NCBI GenBank assembly: GCA_020444325.1
Contig: JAHLLD010000002.1
Span: forward strand, 186,001 to 250,000
DNA: 64,000 bases
Source of the DNA: a bacterium
Lineage (GTDB): Bacteria; Bacteroidota; Ignavibacteria; SZUA-365
Reading direction: 5' to 3'
Made by a program: the position numbers and the translations under genes. Below the pieces are notes generated by a model. That model was not told the DNA's origin, did no database searches, and saw only the letters and a program-made list of their open reading frames with translations. Each line of letters opens with the position of its first letter. Position 1 is the stretch's first letter. Of this stretch, positions 29,504-39,941 are shown in pieces.

Positions 29504-30145
29504 ATGCCCGTGGGCAAGGAATGGACTGACAACCGCAAGAAAGTCGCACGTTTTCTCGAGCAGTATTTCGAGCGGAACGGCCGCGCGCCGAGCATGGATG
29601 AAATCGCGAAAGGGACCGGACTGTGGAAGCGGTCCGTCGAAATCGTTCTCAAGGGATTGGAAAAAATCGGCTTTATCGAAATCACACCGGGCATCAGCCG
29701 TGGTATCAGGCTGATCGAGCAGTCCTTCCGCCGCGTACCGCTTGTGGGCGACGTCAGTGCGGGTCCCCCGGCCTGGGCGCAGGAAGAGGCCGTCGAGTAC
29801 CTGCGGGTCGACCGCAGCATCGTCCCTTTCGAGCAGCCCGTTGCCCTGCGCGTCGATGGGTACAGTATGAGGGACGCCGGCATCCTCCCCGGCGACGTGG
29901 TGCTGGTGCGTCAGCAGTCCGTGGCCAACAACGGTGAAACCGTGATCGCATATTACAATGGCGGTCTGACGGTAAAGAAGTTCGAGTACAAGGGAGAGAC
30001 CATCAGGCTGCTTCCCGCCAACCCCAGTTTCCGTGCGATGGAGGTCACTGAGGAGGACGAGTTCCAGATCGTCGGTCGCGTGATGCTGGTGCTGCGGGAC
30101 CTGGGCGACTGCTTTGAATTCCCCGTCGAACAGATGCAGAATTGA
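29504..30145 (+). CDS. lexA: LexA-like SOS repressor / S24 family autoprotease
   Basis: 213 residues. A winged helix domain (about 8-70: RKKVARFLEQYFERNGRAPS, then SVEIVLKGLEKIGFIE) precedes the S24 peptidase domain. The self-cleavage bond would be A86-G87 (VSAGPPAW), the nucleophile S121 (GYSMRDAGI) and the general base K158 (LTVKKF). The family binds SOS gene promoters and cleaves itself when RecA filaments form. An unusual Gly-rich FRRVPLVGDVSAG linker is otherwise normal. The promoter and dyad just upstream suggest autoregulation. Confidence 0.92.
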   Translation: MPVGKEWTDNRKKVARFLEQYFERNGRAPSMDEIAKGTGLWKRSVEIVLKGLEKIGFIEITPGISRGIRLIEQSFRRVPLVGDVSAGPPAWAQEEAVEYLRVDRSIVPFEQPVALRVDGYSMRDAGILPGDVVLVRQQSVANNGETVIAYYNGGLTVKKFEYKGETIRLLPANPSFRAMEVTEEDEFQIVGRVMLVLRDLGDCFEFPVEQMQN

Positions 30146-30295
30146 CCCGGCAGTGGCCTGTAAAAGCGCTGGATATGGGATGAGAAAACTCGTACTTTTC
30201 TGCATTACCCAGAGTGAACATCCGATTTCGCGTAGAAACCGACCGGAGGGTTCGCAACTGATGCCAAGTCCACTTCATGTTGTCCAGGGGAAACC

Positions 30296-33200
30296 ATGAC
30301 TTCACATCCCGCAATCCTCTCGCTGATTCTCGGCACTGTCCTGCTCTGTTCCACCCTGCAGGCGCAGGAGGTCGAACGCGTACGCAATGACGGTATGGGA
30401 TATCACGTTCTCGATGCAGAAGGTGTCTCGCTGTTCATACTTGACGGCTACGCCCCGGTATCGGGGGAGGAAATCCGCATCCCGAGCAGGATTGTGCGTC
30501 TGCGCATGCCACAGGGCGATCTTGCGGAGTATGTGATCGAGGATGTCGCGCTCTCGGCACCCATTGCCGCATCCCCATTTTATTATGTCGAAGGAAGCTG
30601 GTCTCCCGATTCAGCAGTGGTGATGAACTATCGTCCCTTCAATGGTGTGATCAACTCGCGTCCCGCCACCGATGTGCGCATCCTCCGGCAGGAATTCCAC
30701 CAGGCCGGTAATGAAGTGGAAGCCGTCATCGAACTGCCGTTGCTGACCTGGAATCCCGCCACCGGCGAAACCCGCATGGTGGAGGAGTACACGCTGCGCA
30801 GGGTGCGTCGTGATGGACTCGCGGCATCAATCGCAGCCGACGGGAAACCGCCGTATATGAGTATGCCATTCACCACGAGAAGTAATAATGTGGATACCTC
30901 GCATACTTGGATAGATTATTCTTTACCCATGTTGAAATTTTACATTTCACAGGATGGGATCTTTCACCTCACAGCGGACTGGATTCGCGCTTCTGGTATA
31001 AACCCAGCCGATGTCAATCCCGCAACTGTACAGTTGATCCGGAAGGGGCGGCCTGTTGCTATGTACGCACGTGGAATGGAGGATGGTGTTTTCGATGACG
31101 GGGATGAATTCATTTTTCATGGTACAAAGAACTACGATGAACGTGGATACAAGTTTATTCCAGAAGATTGGTTAGAACCATATCCACAATACATGAGTAT
31201 TTATACAGACTCGACTGCATACTGGCTAAGCTTTTCAGTATCTGATCCTTTGAGAGCAGAAATTGATGGTGGGATGCTACCTCTCCCTCTGGATACACTT
31301 GACTGGGCGATGGAGAAAGTGCACTTGGAACAGGAGTATCAGCTGCAGTCAGTGAGCGCAGATGTCATCCGTATCCAGGACCCACATTGGTCGCTGTACG
31401 ATACCTGGTTTTGGACATGGACAGGGCGGGGAGGTTCGGTAACAGTTCAAGCAGCAGCTGATCACATCAAGCCAGGACAAAATGCAAGAGCATGGGGGAA
31501 ACTCATGCATGAGTATGGCACACCTAGTATTAGTATGAATCACGTGGCCATCCTTCAGGTTAATAATGTCGGGACATTGGATTCTCAGAATGTTGATTAC
31601 GGGGAGCAAATGTTACTCTCTGGTAGCCTGCCTTCTGATAGCCTTCGCGAAGGCTCAAACATATTGTTTATAGATAATTTGAATATTGTCGATCCGCAGA
31701 GTGACCTTAAATTTGACTGGGCAGAACTGGAGTATCCCAGATTCCTCGAGATTTCACAAGGATGGCGGGTGTTTCAAGTTGATTCTACGATGCCTACTGG
31801 TGTTCAGCTCATAAGGTTACAGGCGCTGTCAGCAAATGATCCAGTAGTTTTGCGTGTTACAAATGATGGGAGATCGCGTGTGTTGCCGGTCGCCGGCTTC
31901 ACTTACGATAGCAGTTACACAGTTTATATTGCTGATACTGTTATCGCGGGGGCAACGTACTTTGTTGCACTGGATACGTCCATACGATTGCCACAGCCTG
32001 GTACCCTTCATGATTTTAAACCCTTATCTGCAGTGGAGGATGCTGCATCCTATGTTGTTATAACTGCTCCTGAATTTGTTTCCGTGTGCGGGCAGTATAC
32101 TGATTTTATCACGGAAAGATATGGTGTCGATACGCGTATCGTGAATATCGATGACATTTATGATGAATATAGCTATGGGATGTTCCAGCCTGAAGCGATC
32201 AAACTGTTCCTGTTCGATGCTTATCATGAGTGGGTTCAGGATTCGTTGAAATACGTATTTCTTATCGGTGATGCAAATTACAATTATAAAGCTGCTGGAG
32301 CCACCTTCGGGAGAAATTATGTGCCATCATATGGCTACCCTGTTAGCGATGTCTGGTTTGTAGCATTCGACTCACTTCAAGTGTACCCGAAAATTTCAAT
32401 TGGCCGTTTGCCGGTATCGACTCCGGGACAGATTACCGATTATCTTGAGAAGCATGATAATTATCTTGATTTGGGTTTTGACCTTTGGAATAAGACAAGT
32501 CTGCATTTTAGTGGTGGATTTCGGCAGATTGAGTATGCGTTTTACTCAGGAGTCAACTGGTCCATAATTAATGAGAGCGTAGTACCCCCAGACTACGCTG
32601 GTAATTATACGCATTTTTATAAAACTGCTGACCCGCCATCGGATTTTGGGCCATACGAGCGGCAATTCCTCAATGATCGAATCGACGATGGAGGAATCTT
32701 TATCTCATATATTGGCCATAGCGGCACAAGAATCTGGGATAATACCATTACACGTCCTTCTCAGCTTGCGAGTTTGAGCGGTCGCCCAAGCCTGTTGACT
32801 GATTTTGGATGTTCGACAGGGAAGTTTGCCGAGCCCAACTATCTGTCATTTTCTGAAGTCTTTGTTAGTACTGGAGAGGATAATAACGCCATTGCGTATA
32901 TAGGAAATGCTGCAGCCGGATTTGAAAATACCTTGACGACAATGCCGTTGATTTTTTACCGCTATTTGCTCCAGGACAATGTGCTACGGATCGGAGATAC
33001 CCACCGGTTATCAAAGAATGAAATGAGTGATATTTTTGGTGTCCAACTAACCAGTCAGATCGCGATACAGACGAATACGCTTATTGGAGATCCCATTATT
33101 TCACTTCCCATTCCACAAAAAACTAACCCGATCGTTAAGTCGACATGGATACGAACCGTGGATCCAATCATCACTGATCGCATGGATACGCTTCGATTCC

Positions 33201-35584
33201 GTGTCGCAGTAGGAAACTTTGGCAGAAAGTTGGATGATTCTCTTGACATTCGTGTCGAGGCGCTGAATGGTGGCGGGACGTGGTTCAGTCAGGACCAAAT
33301 GATTCCTTTCCCCTCAGTATTCGATACATTGCAACTTAGTGTCCCATCTCCGCAAGCCGCCGGTAAGAACTCCCTTCGTGTGACGCTCGATATCGATAAT
33401 CGAATCGAGGAGATATCGGAGTCCGATAACGTCGCCGAGTATGAGTATGATATTCTAAGTACATACTTGAATGTTGTGGATGAGCGTCTTGCAACTGAGC
33501 GAAGAGGTAATGAGAATATACAGATTCTAAATCCACTCAACGATCCAGGTGGTGTTACTGCCGTTGAGTTCGAGTTCGATACGGATCGAAAATTCTCAGG
33601 AGCGTTGAAAGCAAATGCGACATATGGTAGAACTGTCACAAAGCTTGAATCACTTCCGTTGCAGACTGGGAATAAATACTACTGGAGAGCCAGGTTGGAG
33701 AACTCCGGTGAATATGTCGGACCATTCATTCGATGGGAAGGCGATTTGATTGCTGATTACATACAATCCGATAGTACCACGTTTATTCAGGATTCCCGCC
33801 ATCTTATCAATTTGCGGTCAGACAGAGTCGAATTGCCTCCTGCGGAGCGGTATCTTTACCTGGAGTCAGGAGGCTGGGATGCTGGTATCTCCACTATTGT
33901 AACGGTGGATTATGGTCCGAACATTTTCAATGGTAAGCGGCAGGGATACGCGGTTGCAGTGCTAGATAGTGCGACACTGGAAACTAAACGATGGGATGTC
34001 TTTTATACATGGGGTAATGCTGCCGATCGCGATTCACTACGGAAATTTATCGAAAATGTTCAGTATGGAGAGATCGCAGCTGTCGTGGTTGGTGATGAGG
34101 GGTCACGTGGCGCTGGGGTATTTGCCAATGCAATGCGATCTATCGGTAGCGCGTTGATTGATAGTGTGGCGCGTTATTACCGTTCGTCATGGGCTATTAT
34201 TGGACGGCGTGGTGCCGCACCGGGTACTGTTCCGGAAGCTTTTGAACCCGGTGGGGCAAATGCAGTAACTGCTATTGTTGATACTACTATAGCGGTTGTT
34301 CCGGATACAGGTTCTATTGTATCAACCGTAATTGGTCCTGCCACAGCCTGGGGAGATGTATATCTCGAAAGACCTCCTATCACAGAGGCAAACATTCTTC
34401 TGTCCATATTAGGGATTGATACACTGGGGAATCAGAACTTGCTCATCGCGGCAGGCAATGTGTCCTCTGTTGATATTAGTTCTATCAATGCAACCCAATA
34501 TCCCTACATTCGTCTCCGGGCTGATCTTGTACCCGCTGTCGGACAGAATCCGGTTCTCGACAGCTGGGCCGTTGAGTTTACACAGCGGCCGGAGCTGGCG
34601 CTCAATTACCAGTCCATCGAAGTGATGGCGGATTCGGTGCAGCAGGGCGAGACGGTCGAGGTTGCAGTGGGGATTCTCAATGCCGGAGAGGGCGCAAGCG
34701 CGTCCTTCCCGGTGCAGCTCGATGTCGTGGGCGATGACAATATTCCGCGGCAGGTGGCGCAGTTTACGGTGGCGGGACTCGCTTCACAGTCCTGGTTCGA
34801 TTCCACCGTGACGATCAATACGGATTTCCTCCGTGGAGCGCAGCAGCTGTTTGTGCGCGTGGACAGGGAAAATGCCGTGGCGGAGCAGTATGAAGACAAC
34901 AATACGTACATCTCATCGTTCGTCGTGAAGCCGGATACCAGCCGTCCCCAGATCGAAGTGACGTTCGATGGCTACACGCCGCTCAATGGCGACTATATCC
35001 GCTACAATCCAGAGATTGTGGTCAAACTCTACAGCAATAATCCTGCACCGATTGAGAGCGTGGAAAACCTGACCGTGACGATTGACGGTGAGGAAATCGC
35101 TTTCGACAGTCTGGACTATGATTTTACGCCGTCCACGAAATCGACTCCGGCGATTCTTCGTTTCCAGCTGGAACTGGCGGATGGTATCTACTATTTCGGC
35201 TTCAACGGGGTTGACGCCAAGAGCGTGCCGGTGTATGAGGATGAGGTGCCTGAACTGCGACTGATCGTCAGTACGGAAAACCGCATCGCCGAGATGTATA
35301 ATTATCCCAACCCTTTTACCAATGAGACTTCGTTCACCTTCCTCCTTACCGGGGCTGAACCGCCGCAAGAGCTGAAGGTGAAGGTGTACACTGTTGCGGG
35401 ACGACTGATCCGCGTGCTCGATTTCCCGCCCACATCAATGCATATTGGATACAATGCTTTGAAATGGGATGGAAGGGACGAGGACGGTGACGAACTCGCC
35501 AACGGTGTGTACTTCTACAAAATCGTAGCAAATTTCACTGAAGAGACATTTGAAGAAATCGGCCGTATGGCGGTGATGCGCTAA
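30296..35584 (+). CDS. gingipain-type C25 cysteine peptidase with T9SS sorting domain (PorU-like)
   Basis: 1762 residues from ATG 30296. A signal peptide ends near TLQAQ (about 27). The propeptide-like beta region precedes a C25 catalytic domain with H808 (YIGHSGTRIWDN) and C839 (TDFGCSTGKF), the expected dyad. CARDB-like beta domains follow around 940-1040 and 1440-1540. The C-terminal 95 residues are a type A sorting domain (YNYPNPFTNET through NGVYFYKIVA). C25 enzymes are T9SS cargo proteases or the T9SS sortase PorU; the presence of a cleavable-type sorting domain favours a secreted protease. The middle (about residues 195-1420) is much lower in GC than both ends. It is followed by the DNA polymerase gene after 22 bases. 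Confidence 0.88.
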   Translation: MTSHPAILSLILGTVLLCSTLQAQEVERVRNDGMGYHVLDAEGVSLFILDGYAPVSGEEIRIPSRIVRLRMPQGDLAEYVIEDVALSAPIAASPFYYVEGSWSPDSAVVMNYRPFNGVINSRPATDVRILRQEFHQAGNEVEAVIELPLLTWNPATGETRMVEEYTLRRVRRDGLAASIAADGKPPYMSMPFTTRSNNVDTSHTWIDYSLPMLKFYISQDGIFHLTADWIRASGINPADVNPATVQLIRKGRPVAMYARGMEDGVFDDGDEFIFHGTKNYDERGYKFIPEDWLEPYPQYMSIYTDSTAYWLSFSVSDPLRAEIDGGMLPLPLDTLDWAMEKVHLEQEYQLQSVSADVIRIQDPHWSLYDTWFWTWTGRGGSVTVQAAADHIKPGQNARAWGKLMHEYGTPSISMNHVAILQVNNVGTLDSQNVDYGEQMLLSGSLPSDSLREGSNILFIDNLNIVDPQSDLKFDWAELEYPRFLEISQGWRVFQVDSTMPTGVQLIRLQALSANDPVVLRVTNDGRSRVLPVAGFTYDSSYTVYIADTVIAGATYFVALDTSIRLPQPGTLHDFKPLSAVEDAASYVVITAPEFVSVCGQYTDFITERYGVDTRIVNIDDIYDEYSYGMFQPEAIKLFLFDAYHEWVQDSLKYVFLIGDANYNYKAAGATFGRNYVPSYGYPVSDVWFVAFDSLQVYPKISIGRLPVSTPGQITDYLEKHDNYLDLGFDLWNKTSLHFSGGFRQIEYAFYSGVNWSIINESVVPPDYAGNYTHFYKTADPPSDFGPYERQFLNDRIDDGGIFISYIGHSGTRIWDNTITRPSQLASLSGRPSLLTDFGCSTGKFAEPNYLSFSEVFVSTGEDNNAIAYIGNAAAGFENTLTTMPLIFYRYLLQDNVLRIGDTHRLSKNEMSDIFGVQLTSQIAIQTNTLIGDPIISLPIPQKTNPIVKSTWIRTVDPIITDRMDTLRFRVAVGNFGRKLDDSLDIRVEALNGGGTWFSQDQMIPFPSVFDTLQLSVPSPQAAGKNSLRVTLDIDNRIEEISESDNVAEYEYDILSTYLNVVDERLATERRGNENIQILNPLNDPGGVTAVEFEFDTDRKFSGALKANATYGRTVTKLESLPLQTGNKYYWRARLENSGEYVGPFIRWEGDLIADYIQSDSTTFIQDSRHLINLRSDRVELPPAERYLYLESGGWDAGISTIVTVDYGPNIFNGKRQGYAVAVLDSATLETKRWDVFYTWGNAADRDSLRKFIENVQYGEIAAVVVGDEGSRGAGVFANAMRSIGSALIDSVARYYRSSWAIIGRRGAAPGTVPEAFEPGGANAVTAIVDTTIAVVPDTGSIVSTVIGPATAWGDVYLERPPITEANILLSILGIDTLGNQNLLIAAGNVSSVDISSINATQYPYIRLRADLVPAVGQNPVLDSWAVEFTQRPELALNYQSIEVMADSVQQGETVEVAVGILNAGEGASASFPVQLDVVGDDNIPRQVAQFTVAGLASQSWFDSTVTINTDFLRGAQQLFVRVDRENAVAEQYEDNNTYISSFVVKPDTSRPQIEVTFDGYTPLNGDYIRYNPEIVVKLYSNNPAPIESVENLTVTIDGEEIAFDSLDYDFTPSTKSTPAILRFQLELADGIYYFGFNGVDAKSVPVYEDEVPELRLIVSTENRIAEMYNYPNPFTNETSFTFLLTGAEPPQELKVKVYTVAGRLIRVLDFPPTSMHIGYNALKWDGRDEDGDELANGVYFYKIVANFTEETFEEIGRMAVMR

Positions 35585-35606
35585 TCACCGCCCGGCCACA
35601 AAGGCC

Positions 35607-38600
35607 GTGCATCTCCATTTACACAGCTTCTATTCCTTTCTCGCCGGAACGCTCTCCATTGACCGCATCATCGAGCAGGCAGGAAAGGCGGGGTATACTG
35701 CGCTCGCTCTGACCGACACCAACAATGTCACCGGCGTCATGGAGTTTTACGTCAAGTGCCGAAACGCGGGTATCAAGCCCGTCATCGGTGCCGAGCTTCG
35801 TGCAGGCGGGGTGCGTGCCGTCGCGCTGGCGAAAAACTGGGACGGCTATGCCGCAATCTGCACGGCACTCACCGAGCTGGTCGTGTCACATCCTCCGGCC
35901 CGGGTCGTCACGGACAGTGACGCATCGGATACGTCGGAGGTACCTGAGGACACGGAAGGCAATCCGCTGGCTCTGCTGCGTGATATTCTTCGTACGCATT
36001 GCGATGAGAATGTGATACTCCTTTGTTCGCATGAATGGCTCCTTTCTTCCCTCGGAGACAGTCGTTCGGAATGCTGCATCGAGTTGCTCAAGCACGAGGA
36101 GGGGAAATGGCCCTCGTTGCAGCGGCTGGGAAAGGAGAGGGGGTTTCCGCTTGTCGCTGCCAATGATGTGTATTTCGGAGCACCTGGGGGACGAAAACTG
36201 CACGGCATGCTGCGCGCCATTGCGACGAATACGACACTGGGAACGCTTCCCCAGGGTGTGCTGGCACCGGAGACCGCGTATTTCATCGGGGAAGAAGAAT
36301 TTCAGAGATGGTTCAAACATGTGCCGGAAGCGCTTGCGCAGCGGCAGCGTATAATCGATGCATGCACGACCGAATTCGATACGACCACCAGCAAATTCAC
36401 CCGGTTTCATGATGTTCCCGACTCTGCGAAGCTCGATCGGTTACGCACGCTGACCGAAGAGGGTTTTCGTTTTCGCTATCCGAACGCTTCGCACGAGGCA
36501 CGTGAACGAATCGAAAAAGAGTTTGTCATTATACGCGACCTGGGGTTTGTGGATTATTTCCTCGTGGCGTGGGACCTGGTGCGCTACGCGAAGCATCGCA
36601 ACTATCCGTATGTGGGACGCGGGTCCGGAGCCAACAGCATCATCGCATACTGCCTGCAGATTACGAACGTCGATCCGATTGAACTCGATCTGTTCTTCGA
36701 GCGCTTCCTCAATCCGGAACGTAAATCTCCACCCGATTTCGATATCGATTTTTCCTGGCGCAACAGGGACGAAATCATCGACTACGCGCTTGCGAAATAC
36801 GGCAGCGATCGTACCGCGATGATATGTACGATATCCACCTTCAATCCCCGTGGCGCACTGCGAGAGATAGGGAAAGTGCTTGGCTTCAGTGCTGCGGAAA
36901 TCAAACAGATTACTTCGCTGCTGCCTGCCTATGGTTCGGTCCGGGACCTGGCGGATGAAGGGAGTCCTGTACACCGCCAGGTCGGTTCGGTGCTGCGGTC
37001 TCCATACGGGAAGGACTGGTCGCGTGCCGCATTCGCCATCCTGGAGTTCCCAAATCACTATGGTATCCATTCCGGGGGAGTGATACTGGCTCCCGAGCGG
37101 ATGACGCGATATACGGCGACTCAGATTGCGCCGAAAGGCGTGCGCATTACGCAGCAGGATATGTTTTCCATGGAAGACTGGAGGCTGGAGAAGCTCGATA
37201 TACTCTCCACACGCGGACTCGGGACATTTGAAGATACCATGCAGGAGGTACGCAGACGAACCGGGAAACTGCCGCCGGTGATGAATTACAAAATTGCGTG
37301 TGAGGACACGCGCACGAAAGACATCATGCGGCGGGGTGAAACCGTGGGCTGTTTCTATGTGGAATCTCCGGCCATGATTCAGCTGCTGAAAAAACTTCGC
37401 ACTGATACCTTTGAAATGCTTACTGCCGCGAGTTCCATCATTCGTCCCGGGGTCGCGCAGTCCGGCATGATGCAGGCCTTCATCGAGCGTTTCCACGACA
37501 GTTCAAAGATCAATCCCCCGCATCCAAAGATGGCGGAACTGCTTCGCAGTACCTACGGAGTCATGGTGTACCAGGAGGACGTCATCAAGGTCGCACATTT
37601 CATCGGCAAGCTGAGTCTCGGTGAGGCGGATCTTTTGCGGCGGGCCATGTCGGGTAAAATGCGCTCGCACGAAGCCATGCGGGCGTTGAAGGAAACATTT
37701 TTCAGGGGATGTATCCGGGAAGGGATTGCAGAGCCGATCGTGCAGGAAATCTGGCGGCAGATGGAATCCTTCGCGGGGTATTCCTTCTGCAAGGCGCATT
37801 CGGCCTCCTACGCCGTGCTTTCCTTCCAGGAGGCGTATCTCAAAGCGCATTACCCGGCACTGTTTCTCTGCAGCGTGCTCAACAACCAGGGCGGCTATTA
37901 TCGTCCGGAAGTATACGTGCAGGAGGCGCGGCGGCTCGGACTCCGTGTGCTGCTGCCCGATGTGAACGTGAGTGACGAACTGCATTACTGTCCCGACGAC
38001 CGCAGCATTCAACTCGGGTTCCTGCATATCAAAGGACTCAGTGAACGGAGTCAGCTGAAAATCCTCGCTGAGCGGAGGGAGAACGGGAAGTTCACGGAAT
38101 TCGACGATTTCCTCGCACGCTCCGGTGCGAGCTTTGAAGACGTCGGTATCCTCGTGCGCTGCGGTGCCTGCGACTGTTTCCAGGAAGATCGTCCCGCCCT
38201 CATGGTGCGCACGCGCCTGTATTTCAACCGGCAACGGCGCAACGACAATGCCCCCGCACTGCAGCTCCACTTCGATTCATTTGATGACGAACTCGAACAG
38301 CTCGAGTCATATTCTCCTTCACAGATCGCACAGATCGAGCTGGAAACCTTCACATACACTGTGTCGACGCATGTCCTTTCCCATTTCGCTGAAGAACTGC
38401 GCAACACGGTGAAAGCCGATGCGCTTGAACGCTTTGTCGGCCGTCGAGTGCAGGTGGGAGGCTGGATGATTGCAGCCAAGCTTACGCGCACACGCAAGGG
38501 AGAACGCATGATGTTCATCAATCTCGACGATTCGGTGGGACGTATCGACGTGGTGCTGTTCCCCCGGTGTTTTTCAGAATACGCGCATCTGCTTCGCACT

Positions 38601-38693
38601 GCGGGACCGTTCATCATTTACGGGCGGGTGGCGAAGGAATATGACGTCATCAACATAGTCGCGGAACGTGTCACGCTGCTGAAGAAGGAATAA
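35607..38693 (+). CDS. alternative DNA polymerase III alpha subunit (DnaE2/ImuC-like)
   Basis: 1028 residues from GTG 35607, which has no in-frame alternative after the preceding stop. The N-terminal PHP domain begins MHLHLHSFYSFLAG. The polymerase core has catalytic aspartates D377 and D379 in PDFDIDFSW, then GCFYVESPAMIQLLKKL and SSIIRPGVAQSGMM. The C-terminal OB fold (VQVGGWMIAAKLTRTRKGE) is present. At about 1030 residues it lacks the tau-binding extension of replicative DnaE1 (about 1150 or more), so it is the accessory, probably error-prone, second DnaE of Bacteroidota. No imuB or dinB polymerase is adjacent; lexA lies 5 kb upstream. Confidence 0.85.
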   Translation: MHLHLHSFYSFLAGTLSIDRIIEQAGKAGYTALALTDTNNVTGVMEFYVKCRNAGIKPVIGAELRAGGVRAVALAKNWDGYAAICTALTELVVSHPPARVVTDSDASDTSEVPEDTEGNPLALLRDILRTHCDENVILLCSHEWLLSSLGDSRSECCIELLKHEEGKWPSLQRLGKERGFPLVAANDVYFGAPGGRKLHGMLRAIATNTTLGTLPQGVLAPETAYFIGEEEFQRWFKHVPEALAQRQRIIDACTTEFDTTTSKFTRFHDVPDSAKLDRLRTLTEEGFRFRYPNASHEARERIEKEFVIIRDLGFVDYFLVAWDLVRYAKHRNYPYVGRGSGANSIIAYCLQITNVDPIELDLFFERFLNPERKSPPDFDIDFSWRNRDEIIDYALAKYGSDRTAMICTISTFNPRGALREIGKVLGFSAAEIKQITSLLPAYGSVRDLADEGSPVHRQVGSVLRSPYGKDWSRAAFAILEFPNHYGIHSGGVILAPERMTRYTATQIAPKGVRITQQDMFSMEDWRLEKLDILSTRGLGTFEDTMQEVRRRTGKLPPVMNYKIACEDTRTKDIMRRGETVGCFYVESPAMIQLLKKLRTDTFEMLTAASSIIRPGVAQSGMMQAFIERFHDSSKINPPHPKMAELLRSTYGVMVYQEDVIKVAHFIGKLSLGEADLLRRAMSGKMRSHEAMRALKETFFRGCIREGIAEPIVQEIWRQMESFAGYSFCKAHSASYAVLSFQEAYLKAHYPALFLCSVLNNQGGYYRPEVYVQEARRLGLRVLLPDVNVSDELHYCPDDRSIQLGFLHIKGLSERSQLKILAERRENGKFTEFDDFLARSGASFEDVGILVRCGACDCFQEDRPALMVRTRLYFNRQRRNDNAPALQLHFDSFDDELEQLESYSPSQIAQIELETFTYTVSTHVLSHFAEELRNTVKADALERFVGRRVQVGGWMIAAKLTRTRKGERMMFINLDDSVGRIDVVLFPRCFSEYAHLLRTAGPFIIYGRVAKEYDVINIVAERVTLLKKE

Positions 38694-38737
38694 TATCGGC
38701 GCACAGGAAGCGAGTGGTCCGGGAATTGCCGATATTA
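38691..38737. repeat. 10-bp inverted repeat between the DNA polymerase gene and the MFS gene
   Basis: TAATATCGGC (38691-38700) and GCCGATATTA (38728-38737) are perfect complements 27 bases apart. The left arm contains the stop codon of the polymerase gene and the right arm ends 4 bases before the MFS start. There is no T-run, so an operator or an mRNA hairpin affecting the MFS ribosome site is more likely than a terminator. Confidence 0.5.
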
Positions 38738-38741
38738 GAAG

Positions 38742-39941
38742 ATGAATGACGATGCAGCACATTCGCAGACTGTGACCGGGGAAGAGCGCTTTCAGACAGG
38801 GAAAATTGTCATGATCTCCCTGGCGCATATGGTGCACGATGTGTATTCAAGCTTTCTTGCGCCACTGCTGCCGCTGCTGATCGACAAACTGGGCATGTCG
38901 TACGGACTCGCCGCTTCCCTCAGTGTGGTACAGCGGCTGCCATCGCTGCTTAATCCCGTCGTCGGCGCACTGGCTGAGCGCATGAGTGTGCGCTACTTTA
39001 TTATCGTTTCACCGGGACTGACGGCGATCGTCATGAGCCTTATCGGTGCGGCACCGCATTACGCGGTACTGGTGTTCCTGCTGCTGATAATGGGAGTGAG
39101 CGCGACGCTGTTTCATGTCCCTTCACCCGTGATGATACGCCGGGTCGCCGGGAAACGCACCGGCAGGGGGATGAGCTATTACATGCTCGGGGGGGAGTTT
39201 GCGCGGAGTATCGGTCCACTCGTCATTCTCGGGGCGGTATCGATCTGGGGACTGGAGGGCACATGGCGGCTCATGCCTTTCGGAATCGCCGCATCCGTGG
39301 TGCTGTATTTTCAATTCCATCGCATTCGCATTTCCGATCAATTTCGTGCCCGACGTGAGGGATTGCGCATCCGCGATACGTTCAGAGAGCATCGCCGTTT
39401 CCTCCTGCTCATGAGTGGTATGCTGCTGTTCCAGTCCCTGCTCAAATCCGCTCTGACAGCATTTTTACCGACGTTGATGACTGAAGAAGGGGCTTCGGTA
39501 TGGATGGGTGGTGGATACCTTTCCATCCTCCAGTTCGCCGGAGCTGCGGGGACGTTCATGGCAGGGGGATTTTCAGATCGCTTCGGACGGAAGCGCACGT
39601 TGCTGATATCCGCCGTTTCCGGTCCCGTCCTTCTCTGGATTTTCCTCTTTCTGGATGGTGCCCCCGGTATCGCCGCACTGGTGCTTCTCGGACTCGCAAT
39701 CTTCGCACCCATGCCTGTAATGCTGGCGCTCGTGCAGGATCAGGATGCAGAGCGTCCGGTCTTTCTCAATGGCGTGTATATGGGACTGAGCTTTCTGCTC
39801 GGCGCCGTCGGTGTTCAGCTCGTAGGCGCCGCGGGCGATATCCTCGGCCTGCGCACCACCTTCAATGTCACAGCGTTCCTTGCCCTGCTATCCATTCCCT
39901 GCATTCTCATGCTCAATGAACGTCCAAAACAGTCTCATTGA
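38742..39941 (+). CDS. MFS transporter, fosmidomycin-resistance (Fsr)-like
   Basis: 399 residues with about twelve membrane helices. The first helix reads VMISLAHMVHDVYSSFLAPLLPLLI, the characteristic H-x-x-x-D/H-x-Y-x-x-F-L-x-P-L-L-P start of Fsr-like exporters, and GFSDRFGRKRTLLISA in the second half is the MFS loop 8-9 signature. It should be a proton-driven exporter; the substrate cannot be read from the sequence. No clear Shine-Dalgarno sequence is present, and the start lies 48 bases after the polymerase stop. Confidence 0.82.
   Translation: MNDDAAHSQTVTGEERFQTGKIVMISLAHMVHDVYSSFLAPLLPLLIDKLGMSYGLAASLSVVQRLPSLLNPVVGALAERMSVRYFIIVSPGLTAIVMSLIGAAPHYAVLVFLLLIMGVSATLFHVPSPVMIRRVAGKRTGRGMSYYMLGGEFARSIGPLVILGAVSIWGLEGTWRLMPFGIAASVVLYFQFHRIRISDQFRARREGLRIRDTFREHRRFLLLMSGMLLFQSLLKSALTAFLPTLMTEEGASVWMGGGYLSILQFAGAAGTFMAGGFSDRFGRKRTLLISAVSGPVLLWIFLFLDGAPGIAALVLLGLAIFAPMPVMLALVQDQDAERPVFLNGVYMGLSFLLGAVGVQLVGAAGDILGLRTTFNVTAFLALLSIPCILMLNERPKQSH

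Follow-up and report, generated by a model that had tools for sequence, protein, structure and literature searches.

In bacteria, mosaic genes formed by intragenic recombination have sharp in-frame breaks in composition and codon usage, and their phylogeny usually breaks as well. Among surface proteases of the T9SS type, strains of Porphyromonas gingivalis exchange catalytic-domain variants of the gingipain Kgp and of PrtT, along with alleles of RagAB and the fimbriae, which yields a mosaic unrelated to the strain phylogeny (PMC5266723). The gene that we describe here is comparable: it too encodes a predicted C25 surface protease of the T9SS type, in which a variant of the catalytic region may have been exchanged between conserved ends. 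The differences are considerable. The P. gingivalis variants are strain-level, amounting in Kgp to 21 substitutions in a region of 150 residues, and alternative alleles have been sampled (PMC5266723); here the block is 1226 codons long and is marked by a shift in synonymous composition, no alternative allele is found among the genomes we searched, and the phylogeny of the protein is native. Thus, the gene shares the composition and codon break of mosaic genes, but its phylogeny does not break. The other points of reference are the PorU2 family (NF052324) and the PorU sortase (NF033707; structure 6za2). Our protein has the same order of pro-region, C25 catalytic domain, and Ig-like domain/CTD, with the His and Cys conserved, but it stays below the cut-offs of both families and has additional N-terminal, ILEI-like, and CARDB domains.

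A PorU2-like protease gene between lexA and dnaE

The window, a 64,000-nucleotide stretch from a bacterium of the Ignavibacteria (SZUA-365), contains a C25 peptidase gene, PorU2-like (a PorU paralogue), whose 1762 codons form a single unbroken frame, as the earlier note had said (Table 1). The match to Pfam PF01364 covers the complete profile (1-374), far above its cut-off of 23 bits. The PorU2 profile is also covered in full, in two stretches, at a score that falls short of its cut-off; the congeners score 315 to 345 bits with this model and one distant relative scores 400. With the PorU sortase model, the protein reaches 214 bits (cut-off, 420). The true PorU of the genome is another gene, on contig C18, with 957 bits for NF033707, and there are two more C25 genes besides. 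In profile searches, the closest solved structure is PorU 6za2, matched best in its C-terminal part.

Table 1. Features of the C25 gene and its neighbours (positions in the window)
Feature	Position	Strand	Basis or remarks
lexA, conserved upstream neighbour	29504..30145	+	
C25/PorU2-like gene	30296..35584	+	Pfam Peptidase_C25, 183 bits; NCBIfam NF052324 PorU2, 326 bits (cut-off 450)
N end, codons 1-194	30296..30877	+	host-like GC3, about 0.65; signal peptide according to the earlier note, here a predicted N-terminal helix 6-23; beta-domain residues about 24-171
5′ composition break	30794..30905	+	GC3 fit; coincides with low-confidence linker, residues 174-201
AT-rich core, codons 195-1420	30878..34555	+	GC3 0.42; PorU-like pro-region, C25 catalytic domain, ILEI-like domain
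Peptidase_C25 domain, residues 586-937	32051..33106	+	Pfam
Catalytic His808 codon, GHSG motif	32717..32719	+	orthologue alignment
Catalytic Cys839 codon, DFGC motif	32810..32812	+	orthologue alignment
ILEI-like (POMGnT1-stem/FAM3-like) domain, residues 1216-1307	33941..34216	+	Pfam, profile match to structures
3′ composition break	34502..34589	+	GC3 fit; point where the strand ahead of CARDB meets that domain, residues about 1412-1423
C end, codons 1421-1762	34556..35581	+	host-like GC3, 0.67; CARDB domain, FlgD_ig/T9SS type A sorting tail
dnaE-type DNA polymerase III alpha gene, conserved downstream neighbour	35607..38693	+	GC3 0.65, normal
MFS transporter gene, conserved downstream neighbour	38742..39941	+	

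Pfam further places CARDB at residues 1440-1538 and FlgD_ig at 1674-1745 (score, 35.8), following the Peptidase_C25 and ILEI-like domains of Table 1. The T9SS type A sorting tail (TIGR04183) at the C terminus barely exceeds its threshold (23.4 bits versus 23). The catalytic His and Cys lie within the core, as the earlier note had placed them, and are aligned across all orthologues shown. An ILEI-like domain, kin to the POMGnT1 stem domain and FAM3B, both of which the region matches in a profile search, thus sits inside a bacterial PorU2-like protease. As for the surroundings, the genus keeps the gene order over 29504-39941, with the protease gene between lexA and the dnaE-type polymerase gene: lexA, C25, dnaE, and MFS follow one another in both congeners, G001 and G002, although in G002 lexA is partly cut by a contig end. 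In two other genera of the same family, the orthologous C25 gene is duplicated in tandem (G005:C15:13533-24171 and G007:C129:25250-35820). In two relatives, the orthologue occupies two overlapping or adjoining frames (G008:C1:421017-426261 and G006:C145:19628-24863), by frameshift or assembly error.

An in-frame break in composition and codon usage

Sliding GC is 0.41 to 0.50 over approximately 30850-34600 and 0.51 to 0.63 on either side, and the drop falls mainly at third codon positions (GC3), with 0.42 for the core compared to 0.67 for both ends taken together. By segment, GC3 is 0.65 over codons 1-195, 0.42 over 196-1415, and 0.67 over 1416-1762. Since genes of at least 200 codons in this genome have a mean GC3 of 0.65 (sd, 0.06), both ends of the gene are normal, as had been claimed, and the core is anomalous. 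The best two-break fit to GC3 has a log-likelihood ratio of 45, and a codon-usage (log-odds) fit delimits codons 195-1420. This second fit returns nearly the same core as the one first reported (30880-34555). The shift had been called abrupt at both edges; the break is indeed sharp, but the 5′ edge is blurrier than that, with an uncertainty of codons 167-204 and a GC3 that remains about 0.5 up to codon 270. In the codon-usage fit it is the 3′ edge that is blurrier, with alternatives at codons 1375-1437 within 3 log units. Overall, the edges can be placed within about 35 to 60 codons. We scored 543 ORFs with 300 codons or more, from 1.264 Mb (27%) of the genome, and this intragenic GC3 break ranks first, with a score of 45 compared to 30 for the runner-up. 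The dinucleotide profile of the core is atypical as well: its distance to the window is 101, and equal-sized pieces from the remaining window reach 77 at most.

Amino-acid composition, which the earlier note had named as one possible refutation, can be ruled out as the source, since the codon choices of the ends applied to the amino acids of the core predict a GC3 of 0.66, where 0.42 is observed. The gene therefore has an in-frame break in composition and codon usage that exceeds what its amino acids explain. An overlapping gene as a constraint on the core was rejected, there being no long ORF in another frame of the core (the longest has 116 codons). We also rejected the idea that proteins with a T9SS tail are AT-rich in general: the others bearing the tail motif have a GC3 of 0.59 to 0.78 and no such break, in a motif search that was incomplete and missed, for example, a 1147-residue protein at L146 387+ with a Pfam Por_Secre_tail and a GC3 of 0.42.

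In structure models of the two ends, built on alignments of 15 sequences, the 5′ break maps to residues 174-201, a disordered linker (pLDDT, <50). The 3′ break lies between two strands, one ending at about residue 1412 and the next starting at about 1423, where the CARDB part begins. Both breaks adjoin strongly conserved blocks, KPPY..PFTTRS..VDT..WID and PELALNYQS. Edges that match domain boundaries are what one might expect of selection on the synonymous sites of the core, be it for translation speed during domain folding, for mRNA structure, or for a DNA-level signal. We consider such selection improbable, because it would have had to affect 1226 codons, with no comparable shift in any orthologue examined or in any other T9SS-tail protein found by motif, and because the other frames of the core hold nothing longer than the short ORF mentioned above. 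A further rival is an assembly chimera of orthologues from two organisms, in favor of which it counts that the named relatives are metagenome-assembled Ignavibacteria/Bacteroidetes. This is very improbable: the frame is open, and the gene is in exact collinear register with its orthologues over both junctions, with no gap relative to G002. Furthermore, the gene lies on a 525-kb contig of an assembly with 25 contigs and 100% completeness, and the nearest orthologue, that of G002, has a nucleotide identity of about 60%, so that a mis-join would find little sequence in common.

Genealogy of the core and its ends

With one genome per species, we compared the core to 16 genomes of the taxonomic order and 391 of the class. 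It has a match in 16/16 genomes of the order, the nearest being that of G002 with 63% identity; beyond the order, the best match in the class has 34%. None of the orthologues of the order that we examined has a low-GC3 core; their core segments have a GC3 of 0.50 to 0.83 (0.71 in G001 and 0.79 in G002). At the protein level, our gene and G002 are 59% identical in the N end, 62.7% in the core, and 75% in the C end; the respective values are 42.5, 48.9, and 69.1% with G001, and 46.7, 51.2, and 73.6% between the two congeners. These distances scale in parallel, in the core and the ends alike. Residue changes unique to our gene outnumber those unique to G002 to the same degree in both parts, 62:39 for the core versus 40:25 for the ends (odds ratio, 1.006), and amino acids with AT-rich codons show only a small rise in the core.

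Separate trees of ends and core, which the earlier note had called for, turned out to be congruent. In maximum-likelihood trees (FastTree, followed by iqtree, under models of stationary composition), our gene and G002 pair as sisters throughout: for the N end, for the core as a whole and for each third of it, and for the C end, with bootstrap values of 66, 100, and 73 for N end, core, and C end. When our core is constrained to lie outside the genus, the tree is worse by 104 lnL; a position outside the family makes it worse by 230 lnL. The phylogeny of the core thus agrees with that of the ends.

These results bear directly on the cargo swap that had been proposed, in which a non-orthologous or distantly related core replaced the central protease and the export ends were kept. 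The composition break exists, and the mechanism does occur in this genome, in the DUF7948 family described below. For the C25 gene the proposal is hardly credible. The same core is found across the order, in relatives whose orthologues have a host-like phylogeny and the expected divergence, which is the very result that the earlier note had said would refute it; the core is sister, with full support, to the core of G002; placement outside the genus is rejected; and the distances to G002 and G001 keep the same proportions in the core as in the ends. As judged from sequence, the core encodes the lineage's own protease, and nothing at the protein level sets it apart.

Synonymous sites and the origin of the core

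At four-fold sites of conserved residues, our core matches that of G002 at 0.223, which is chance (expected, 0.217). The ends match G002 above chance (0.423; expected, 0.326), and so does the core of G002 with the more distant core of G001 (0.513; expected, 0.336). The excess of identical codons over within-amino-acid shuffles gives a similar picture: between our genome and G002, the ends (0.09), dnaE (0.088), and the MFS gene (0.092) all have higher values than the core (0.041), and between the cores of G002 and G001 it is 0.115. Most of the synonymous similarity to relatives, not all of it, has been lost, and in the core only. By these comparisons, codon choice changed and the protease did not.

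The codon usage of the core is nearly flat. It agrees with a simple mutation model (r = 0.86) about as closely as with the AT-rich islands of the genome (r = 0.88), and over these islands and unrelated orthologues of GC3 0.45 the agreement is 0.84 to 0.89. Since the flat model and unrelated orthologues fit equally well, the codon usage of the core names no donor. Nor is the resemblance in codons to the O-antigen-type islands of the genome evidence of a shared source: its r of 0.89 looked specific, yet the flat model and orthologues that are unrelated but close in GC3 reach 0.86 to 0.89. One AT-rich island (L062; C1:60001-80000) has a GC3 of about 0.4 over many genes, including an O-antigen-ligase-like (Wzy_C) gene. 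Another AT-rich stretch lies within a 1541-residue ORF without a Pfam match (L113 7126-11748 −; C6:87126-91748), a mosaic in codon usage whose codons of about 148-1087 are of the AT-rich type.

The reading that we prefer, tentatively, is that a close relative with AT-richer codons, not among the genomes sampled, supplied the core as an allelic block by exchange. In this reading, the PorU2-like C25 protease gene is the lineage's own, was inherited vertically, and still sits at its ancestral locus. The block in its middle, with the pro-region, the caspase-like catalytic domain, and the ILEI-like domain, would have been replaced in frame, the recombination taking place in the conserved flanks between domains. 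As donor, either a close relative or an accessory gene copy within the same clade would have had the same protein and an AT-richer, nearly flat codon usage. The protease would have kept working as before, and so would its predicted type IX export signals. Both the recombination and this AT-richer donor are inferred. Such an exchange explains why the edges are sharp, collinear, and at domain junctions; synteny with the congeners, the conserved flanks at the linker and the domain junction, the loss of synonymous similarity, and the precedent in the DUF7948 family also count in its favor. Several observations count against it. The donor must fall within the clade of our genome and G002 and yet be far AT-richer than the sampled members. 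No donor or alternative allele was found in the order (16 genomes), the class (391 genomes), the genome itself, plasmids, or phages: there was no close low-GC orthologue in the order or class, no further copy of the core elsewhere in this genome that might have served in conversion, no phage match, and a single weak plasmid match (Runella; 29% identity, 22% covered). The ratio of unique changes is the same in core and ends, the rise in AT-coded amino acids is smaller than a donor long AT-rich might give, and the nucleotide identity of our gene to G002 is low for ordinary homologous recombination.

The alternative is drift in place, in which the core never moved but, in this lineage alone, lost the upkeep of GC at synonymous sites and moved to a flat, AT-leaning mutational equilibrium. 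What was lost would be GC-biased gene conversion or codon selection; perhaps divergent alleles block recombination in the core while the ends still recombine. Drift agrees with the native phylogeny and relative rate of the core and needs no AT-rich close donor, and the flat model fits the codons of the core about as well as the AT-rich islands do. A study on how GC relates to recombination in bacteria (PMC4450053) counts, by that topic, for the same side. We still think drift rather unlikely, given that it does not explain the sharp edges, which call for a process that acts locally and stops at domain junctions, and that no relative examined has a low-GC3 core. A synonymous rewriting of the 1226-codon block in place, to AT-rich and nearly flat codons, is a shade less likely still; the local process behind it, for instance a loss of GC-biased conversion in a segment whose divergent alleles hinder recombination, would have had its edges at domain junctions and left the relative rate and genealogy of the protein unchanged, and to our knowledge, in-place AT rewriting at such a scale inside one bacterial gene has not been described.

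The DUF7948 family of the same genome bears on both readings. Two exported paralogues, C3:217056-222059 (L108 7056-12059 +) and C16:128396-133390 (L146 from 3896 +), are 99 to 100% identical in DNA over codons 61-180, 49 to 60% over codons 241-720, and 91 to 100% over codons 721-960, and both cores are AT-rich (GC3, 0.35 to 0.41). This is an in-frame exchange of cores between near-identical ends in one genome, and it fits the model of the earlier note better than the C25 gene does. Three more paralogues, L145 1434+ and L145 10785+ (C16) and L147 2514− (C1), share codons of about 1320-1668 with the C3 gene at a nucleotide identity of 0.78 to 0.93 and are divergent in the rest, which suggests that the C-terminal frame is homogenised by gene conversion. 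In several other DUF7948 paralogues, the non-converting middles have a GC3 of 0.56 to 0.74 in three and 0.46 to 0.55 in two. Isolation from conversion alone thus does not regularly make a segment so AT-rich, which argues against drift. Block exchange, then, is still the best explanation we have for the C25 gene, short of an even chance as we see it: of the replacement first proposed, the mosaic is real and recombination of the core may stand, but the protein is native and was not swapped for an unrelated one.

It is routine to take a break in composition as a sign that a new function arrived by horizontal transfer. In this gene the break is real and strong, yet the protein is native, a warning that cargo swaps are not to be inferred from composition alone. 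If block exchange is true, there would be a hidden pool of AT-rich surface-protease alleles, swapped as blocks between fixed export ends. If drift is true, the gene would be a natural test of what keeps GC at bacterial synonymous sites.
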